Part shown: piece by piece, positions 2,015 through 2,854 of the stretch | Position numbering within the stretch: the stretch's first letter is position 1 | Layout of the letters: every line of letters starts with the position of its first letter | DNA from: a bacterium | GTDB taxonomy: Bacteria > Joyebacterota > Joyebacteria > Joyebacterales > Joyebacteraceae | Length of the DNA stretch: 48,511 nucleotides | NCBI GenBank assembly: GCA_025774245.1 | Contig: JALGWI010000018.1 | Span: 1 to 48,511 of the forward strand | Direction: 5' to 3' | The notes under the pieces: model-generated | Told to the model about the DNA's origin: nothing | What the model saw: the letters and a program-made list of their open reading frames with translations, nothing else | The model's database searches: none | Program-made: the position numbers and the translations under genes

Positions 2015-2044
2015 GAACCCCCGCGGCGGCCGCCGCGGGGGTTC
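2015..2044 (+). terminator. GC-rich hairpin downstream of the sulfatase gene
   Basis: A perfect inverted repeat, GAACCCCCGCGGC paired with GCCGCGGGGGTTC around a GGCC loop, lies 66 bases after the sulfatase stop. It has no T-run, so it probably acts with the second hairpin at 2050-2076. Confidence 0.45.
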
Positions 2045-2049
2045 GCAGG

Positions 2050-2082
2050 GAGGCCGCTGGCAGTGCCAGCGGCCTCTTCGTT
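2050..2082 (+). terminator. Terminator-like hairpin, target site of the intron
   Basis: GAGGCCGCTGGC and GCCAGCGGCCTC form a 12-bp perfect stem with an AGT loop, followed by TTCGTT. The group II intron begins two bases later, at GTGCG 2084. Group IIC introns are known to insert just 3' of intrinsic terminator hairpins, so this stem is both the likely sulfatase terminator and the intron target. Confidence 0.65.
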
Positions 2083-2083
2083 G

Positions 2084-2761
2084 GTGCGCCGGGCATGGCG
2101 CGCAGCGCCAGGGACGGCGCTGTCAACCGGAGACCGAAAGGGAACCGGGAAGTGACTTGGAGGTGAGAGTCCTCTGGGGGCCCTGGTGGCGGGATTCCAC
2201 CGCGAGGTGGGCGGGAAGGCAGCTGTAGGCAAAGCCCCGGCCCGAGGAACACGAACTGCATACGAGGCGTTCACGTGGTGGGCGAGAGGGCCAACGGACT
2301 CGAAGCCCGATGCCACCCGGATCTCGTGGGCGTATATGCGGCGGGTATGTGGGGCGAAGGTCACGCGTCTTACCCCGGGAGAACTGTCCGTCTGTCCCTC
2401 TGTCTGGGACTAGTTGCGTCAAGAGGCGTAGCGAGGGGCGGGCAGGAGTCAGCCGAGGCCATAGTAGCCGCTCGCACAGCGGTGAAGGGCCGAACACGAG
2501 GAGCCGACCCTGCACGAAGCGTTCGATGCCCGAGGAAGACGCAGACACGACGGCTGAGATGCCTGAGTGGTCCCCGAGCGCAGGCGGCGGAACCGCCGAG
2601 GGTAGGGAGACCGAGCGTCAAACGGGCACGGCACGCGACGAGCATGCAAGCGAGGGGGCTCGCGCACCGGAGCCTCATGTGTTCCCCGTGAACCGCCGGA
2701 TACGGAACCGTACGTCCGGTGGTGTGGGAGGGTGGGGCCGCGAGGCCCCGCCCTACCCGCT
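2084..2761 (+). mobile_element. Group IIC-like intron without an encoded reverse transcriptase
   Basis: The 5' end GTGCGCCGGGCATGG matches the GUGCG start of bacterial group II introns. Domain V folds fully at 2692-2723: ACCGCCGGA pairs with TCCGGTGGT, a two-base CG bulge sits at 2713-2714, and TACG/CGTA closes a GAAC tetraloop. The triad is CGC (2694-2696), as in class IIC, not AGC. Domain VI (about 2726-2758) is a GC-rich stem with a GCGA loop and a bulged A at 2755, 6-7 bases from the probable 3' end. The insertion point follows a terminator hairpin, also a IIC trait. Domain IV, where the reverse transcriptase/maturase gene should sit, is only a few hundred bases and encodes nothing I recognise. 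The element may be a deletion derivative that depends on a maturase supplied in trans, or a dead copy. The 3' boundary is uncertain by a few bases because of a local duplication. Confidence 0.82.
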
Positions 2762-2778
2762 GCCCGCCCTACCCGCTG
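2747..2778 (+). repeat. 16-bp tandem duplication across the intron 3' end
   Basis: CCCGCCCTACCCGCTG occurs twice without a gap (2747-2762 and 2763-2778). The first copy contains the 3' strand of domain VI with the branch-point A, so the second duplicates the intron 3' splice region. Confidence 0.85.
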
Positions 2779-2825: not shown

Positions 2826-2854
2826 TTGACGGCTCCCCGTGCAGCCGATAGCAT
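2826..2854 (+). promoter_or_regulatory. Sigma-70-type promoter for the SpeE-like fusion gene
   Basis: TTGACG (2826-2831), 17-base spacer and TAGCAT (2849-2854), about 120 bases before the TTG start at 2975. The sequence between 2779 and this promoter holds only GC-rich DNA with no feature I can name. Confidence 0.5.

Follow-up and report, generated by a model that had tools for sequence, protein, structure and literature searches.

We found that the window, a 48,511-nt stretch of DNA, carries a group II intron without a reverse transcriptase (RT) gene, seated directly behind a terminator-type hairpin. Very probably, the intron descends from a IIC ribozyme that lost its RT through one deletion of ~1.24 kb and then spread non-autonomously, in trans, to terminators, its helper apparently having been lost since. 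The window belongs to a 3.23-Mb MAG (G000), whose relatives in the same family include Candidatus Eisenbacteria contigs.

Anatomy of the intron

The ORF-less group IIC-like intron spans positions 2084–2761 of the forward strand (678 nt, GTGCG...CCCGCT). Its ends were set from homologues, and all relatives diverge right past CCCGCT or CCCGAT at the 3′ end (2761). Three Rfam covariance models matched it above their gathering scores: RF02001 (group-II-D1D4-3) at 2196–2369 (116.7 bits, E 2.3e-23), RF01998 (D1D4-1) at 2410–2490 (65.3 bits), and, over D5–D6, RF00029 (Intron_gpII) at 2691–2761 (43.1 bits, E 2.9e-5). Domains I to III were recovered in this search. The signs by which a sequence-only reading had recognized an intron here also held: the GTGCG start at 2084, a domain V (beginning ACCGCCGGAT) with a CGC triad at 2694–2696 and a CG bulge at 2713–2714, and a domain VI with a bulged A. 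A consensus fold of five ribozymes, made with the RT removed, yields six domains (Table 1). Compared with the copy in G019, domain I of the window copy lacks ~22 nt of a peripheral stem, and the RT-bearing copy of G014 lacks ~52 nt at the same stem. Judged from its sequence, the element has the complete structure of an IIC-like group II intron ribozyme.

Table 1. Features of the intron and its flanks in the window
Feature	Position	Strand	Basis
First hairpin behind the sulfatase gene, inverted repeat CCCCCGCGG...CCGCGGGGG	2015..2044	+	sequence
Second, terminator-type hairpin directly before the intron	2050..2076	+	folding of 45 nt upstream
5′ exon tail TTCGTTG, presumed IBS1 region	2077..2083	+	sequence
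Domain I	2089..2378	+	homologue consensus fold
Domain II	2379..2450	+	consensus fold
Domain III	2457..2491	+	consensus fold
Domain IV (196 nt), RT gene deleted	2495..2690	+	consensus fold, alignment to RT-bearing copies
Domain V (34 nt)	2692..2725	+	Rfam match, consensus fold
Domain VI, bulged A at 2755	2726..2758	+	consensus fold
16-bp tandem duplication of the intron 3′ tip, into the 3′ exon	2747..2778	+	sequence
Promoter-like site for the gene downstream, within sequence conserved in G001 and G002	2826..2854	+	sequence comparison

No RT gene was found within the intron, as the earlier reading had stated, and an RT that might have been hidden in the element turned up neither there nor across the junction in other copies. 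A tblastn search for an RT remnant in the window gave nothing significant; the remnant is visible by DNA alignment only. Domain IV had been described as a few hundred bases in the place of the RT. This is amended to 196 nt (2495–2690) and to the remains of an RT-bearing domain IV, with a deletion junction near 2663/2664 and a small hairpin (GGCTC...GAGCC) that persists.

The start of the intron fits GTGYG. It ends in CT, where AY is usual and RT-bearing relatives have AT, and a penultimate C instead of A could weaken splicing. The tandem duplication of the 3′ tip offers a second possible 3′ splice site.

The consensus fold contains 27 pairs changed on both sides, versus 12.6 in shuffles (0/500) and 0–6 in slid controls. 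When the window copy was compared with that of G019 (both ORF-less), 74–88% of the changed pairs were still paired versus 56–59% expected for the same substitutions randomly placed, an excess that is somewhat flattered because the structure was derived from the same sequences. Base pairing has been kept since the ORF-less copies diverged.

Position behind a terminator hairpin

The sequence-only reading had placed the intron behind a terminator hairpin, and the folds bear this out: the 45 nt upstream of the intron fold at −29.7 kcal/mol versus a control median of −11.6, far more strongly than background. The stem at 2050–2076 ends 7 nt upstream of the intron start. It has no long T-run, which is why a simple terminator scan omits it from its list. 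An exceptionally strong hairpin precedes 29 of the 31 listed intron 5′ ends, window included; the two sites without one (L063 and L065) are probably chance matches.

Group IIC introns are marked by EBS1 and EBS3 and by the lack of EBS2. A scan of the exons against D1 for EBS1–IBS1 pairing gave no specific match, its hits being only G-rich stretches opposite T-rich exons. For the gene downstream, the orthologues in G001 and G002 match the window only from ~2812 and have other sequence upstream, which leaves no precise empty site.

A shared deletion at different sites

The reading had also suggested a genome search for full-length, RT-bearing copies and further ORF-less copies, and the family contains both. 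Three full-length introns (L034, L037, and L038; 1877–1934 nt) start with GTGCG behind a hairpin, end in CCCGAT, carry an RT in domain IV, and align with the window intron from both ends. The RT/maturase of L038, a G018 contig, is 418 aa long, contains RVT_1 and GIIM domains, and reaches 421 bits on TIGR04416. The domains of the RTs in the full-length relatives are RVT_1 and GIIM only, with no HNH. Nucleotides 1–563 of the window intron align with nucleotides 1–579 of the G018 intron, and nucleotides 581–676 with 1832–1927. What is missing from domain IV amounts to ~1.24 kb and includes the RT start and all but the last few RT codons.

The same junction (GCGAGGGGGCTC..GCACCGGAGCCTCA) occurs in six copies from four species and two genera: the window copy (G000, contig C80), G000:C100, G019:C194, G005:C172, G005:C131, and a fragment in G011:C140. 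Two of the six are complete, and the G019:C194 copy has 694 nt and is 86% identical to the window intron. The others are 113–172 nt of the 3′ part; G000:C100 and the two G005 copies are 3′ parts with the junction present, and the G011:C140 fragment (172 nt) has the junction plus a small further deletion. The start of contig C100 was considered as a possible RT-bearing copy and rejected, as its first bases span the deletion junction. Five copies (window, C100, G019, and both G005) have D6 changes and the CT end in common. In its D6 and its AT end, the G011 fragment resembles RT-bearing copies, so the D6 changes and the CT end probably arose after the deletion.

The ORF-less copies occupy about five distinct sites, of which only G005:C131 and G019:C194 are orthologous. 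Except for this pair, the flanks of the compared copies are unrelated (the flank of the G011 fragment lay outside the comparison). A tree of the aligned introns did not resolve the two complete ORF-less copies as sisters. The simplest account is a single deletion, then movement.

We considered whether the RT was instead lost independently at each site, or whether the copies are merely decaying remnants that did not spread after the loss. This is very unlikely. Other types of deletion do exist, in C15 of G000 (which keeps an RT remnant and has lost the 3′ end), in G011:C117 (internal deletions), and in G011:C77, but break points differ among all fossils, whereas the six copies have one junction in common together with further derived bases on either side, and pairing is preserved between the two complete copies. 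That the intron did not spread but was inherited vertically, retained at terminators through a role in the host, deserves no more credence: this would fit the one orthologous pair, found in genomes with diverged flanks, yet the sites of the other ORF-less copies are unrelated, and G001 and G002 have no intron next to their orthologues of the downstream gene. Contigs do break inside introns in several MAGs, but it is extremely improbable that an assembler simply dropped the RT segment, since the same junction occurs in different assemblies, one of them (G019:C194, in the MAG contig L039, which was deposited separately) with a complete element, and the flanks of the junction have several substitutions absent from RT-bearing copies.

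Possible helpers and probable spread in trans

A single deletion followed by spread in trans raises the matter of the helper. In the incomplete G000 assembly, no match to the RT family was found beyond a 27-aa RT remnant in C15. This fossil is a related intron of which the 5′ part and a shortened RT persist and the 3′ end is gone. The assemblies of G005 and G019, both incomplete, gave no match to a related RT either. G014 and G018 have intact RTs; G011 contains one distant RT and a piece of the right one. At several places, MAG contigs stop ~106–139 nt into the intron, as repeats collapsed in assembly would make them do, and RT-bearing copies may therefore be missing from the assemblies. Thus, the ORF-less copies in G000 may be orphans without a helper, or the fragmented assemblies may hide RT copies.

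Established group II biology and the precedent of TeI3/TeI4 suggest how the lineage could have moved. The RT/maturase gene would have been lost once, through the ~1.24-kb deletion in domain IV. Should read-through transcribe the intron, its RNA would fold and would splice with the aid of an L034/L038-type RT/maturase, and the intron–RT particle would reverse-splice behind another terminator hairpin and then be copied to DNA. We infer that the RT-less lineage reached new terminator sites by means of an RT that a full-length relative provided in trans; the idea of a trans-mobilised derivative had been raised from the sequence, and our comparisons support it. The helper would later have been lost from G000, leaving its fossil at C15.

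Short 5′ remnants

Searching 20 family genomes for matches to the 5′ end, we found some dozen independent loci at which nothing but the first 26–48 nt of the intron is left (L029, L055, L057, L058, L061, L062, L067, L018, L082, L083, L090, L134, and L137). Nearly all lie directly behind a hairpin. The 26-nt minimum was set by the search pattern; the shortage beyond 48 nt was not. Unbroken contigs had no remnants of 49–81 nt, and one site common to three genomes retains 82–83 nt of the 5′ end. Solo 3′ remnants are few (G011:C140; short matches in G013:C47 and G017:C263 may be others). The preponderance of 5′-only remnants is the opposite of what incomplete reverse transcription would leave. At one and the same site, G018 (C215) has a full intron while G005 (C170) and G011 have remnants, with a similar terminator upstream.

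Intron nucleotides 3–37 form a quasi-palindrome, matched at 13 of 16 positions in the window and at 16 of 16 in the L061 remnant. In the latter (start 1501, minus strand, G013:C45), one arm has acquired a few changes that make the inverted repeat perfect over 16 bp, a pattern like that of palindrome-templated mutation. In G000:C17, a weak D5-like match at 1625–1699 (L113; 35.4 bits, below the cut-off) is perhaps another fossil.

Our guess is that the remnants are old insertions eroded from the downstream side, with the terminator shielding their upstream edge and the palindrome determining where they break off. It is possible that the 5′ remnants retain a hairpin function. A bolder idea, that the ORF-less lineage is kept and moved in genomes without any related RT and that its first ~37–48 nt persist behind many terminators as a stable or useful hairpin element and not as random debris, seems unlikely to us. 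With these short 5′ remnants behind terminators, introns of this type seem to leave a scar that can be recognised.

Comparison with known systems

In the TeI3/TeI4 system of Thermosynechococcus elongatus, 17 ORF-less introns have one ORF deletion in common and were moved to many sites by driver RTs of related introns (PMC2882425). Like TeI3, the lineage described here has a single domain IV ORF deletion common to the family, with RT remnants on both sides, and occupies several sites. However, TeI3 is not reported as terminator-targeted and its drivers are present and tested (PMC2882425), whereas the window lineage is IIC-like and lies behind terminators, and its own assembly yielded no driver.

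Bacterial introns of class C (group IIC) are inserted downstream of intrinsic terminators (Robart et al. 2007; see the reviews PMC4424553 and PMC8919778). The window intron resembles them in its place just behind a hairpin, its GTGYG start, its 34-nt D5, and relatives whose RT appears to have no endonuclease domain; it differs from them in having no RT and in ending in CT. A review describes ORF-less introns in bacteria as rare and as occurring nearly always together with a related RT (PMC4424553). C.te.I1 of Clostridium tetani is ORF-less in a genome known to have no related RT and self-splices robustly in vitro (PMC4424553). The window intron is likewise ORF-less in a genome where no related RT was found, although here the assembly is incomplete and splicing is predicted.

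Three more ORF-less introns, none annotated in their records, were found in Rhizobium/Sinorhizobium plasmids (L078, 1441–2091; L079, 1441–2093) and an IncC plasmid (L077, 1501–2184). The L078 intron lies in a curli locus, and that of L077 before traL. Like the window intron, all three (~650–685 nt) have a GTGCG start behind a hairpin, match the same Rfam models, and have no annotated RT. They form a separate branch, however, with another domain IV and ~67–73% identity over the alignable part, and presumably represent independent RT losses.

We found no report in the literature of a group II intron in Eisenbacteria. Taken together, the window lineage is a further case of a known kind of ORF-less intron, with TeI3 as its nearest precedent. 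Within an uncultured phylum, it represents a lineage of IIC-like introns targeted to terminators, with one RT deletion, putative spread across species, and apparent loss of the helper. Over the 5′ part, copies with and without the RT show 83% identity, which makes the question of the helper directly testable.
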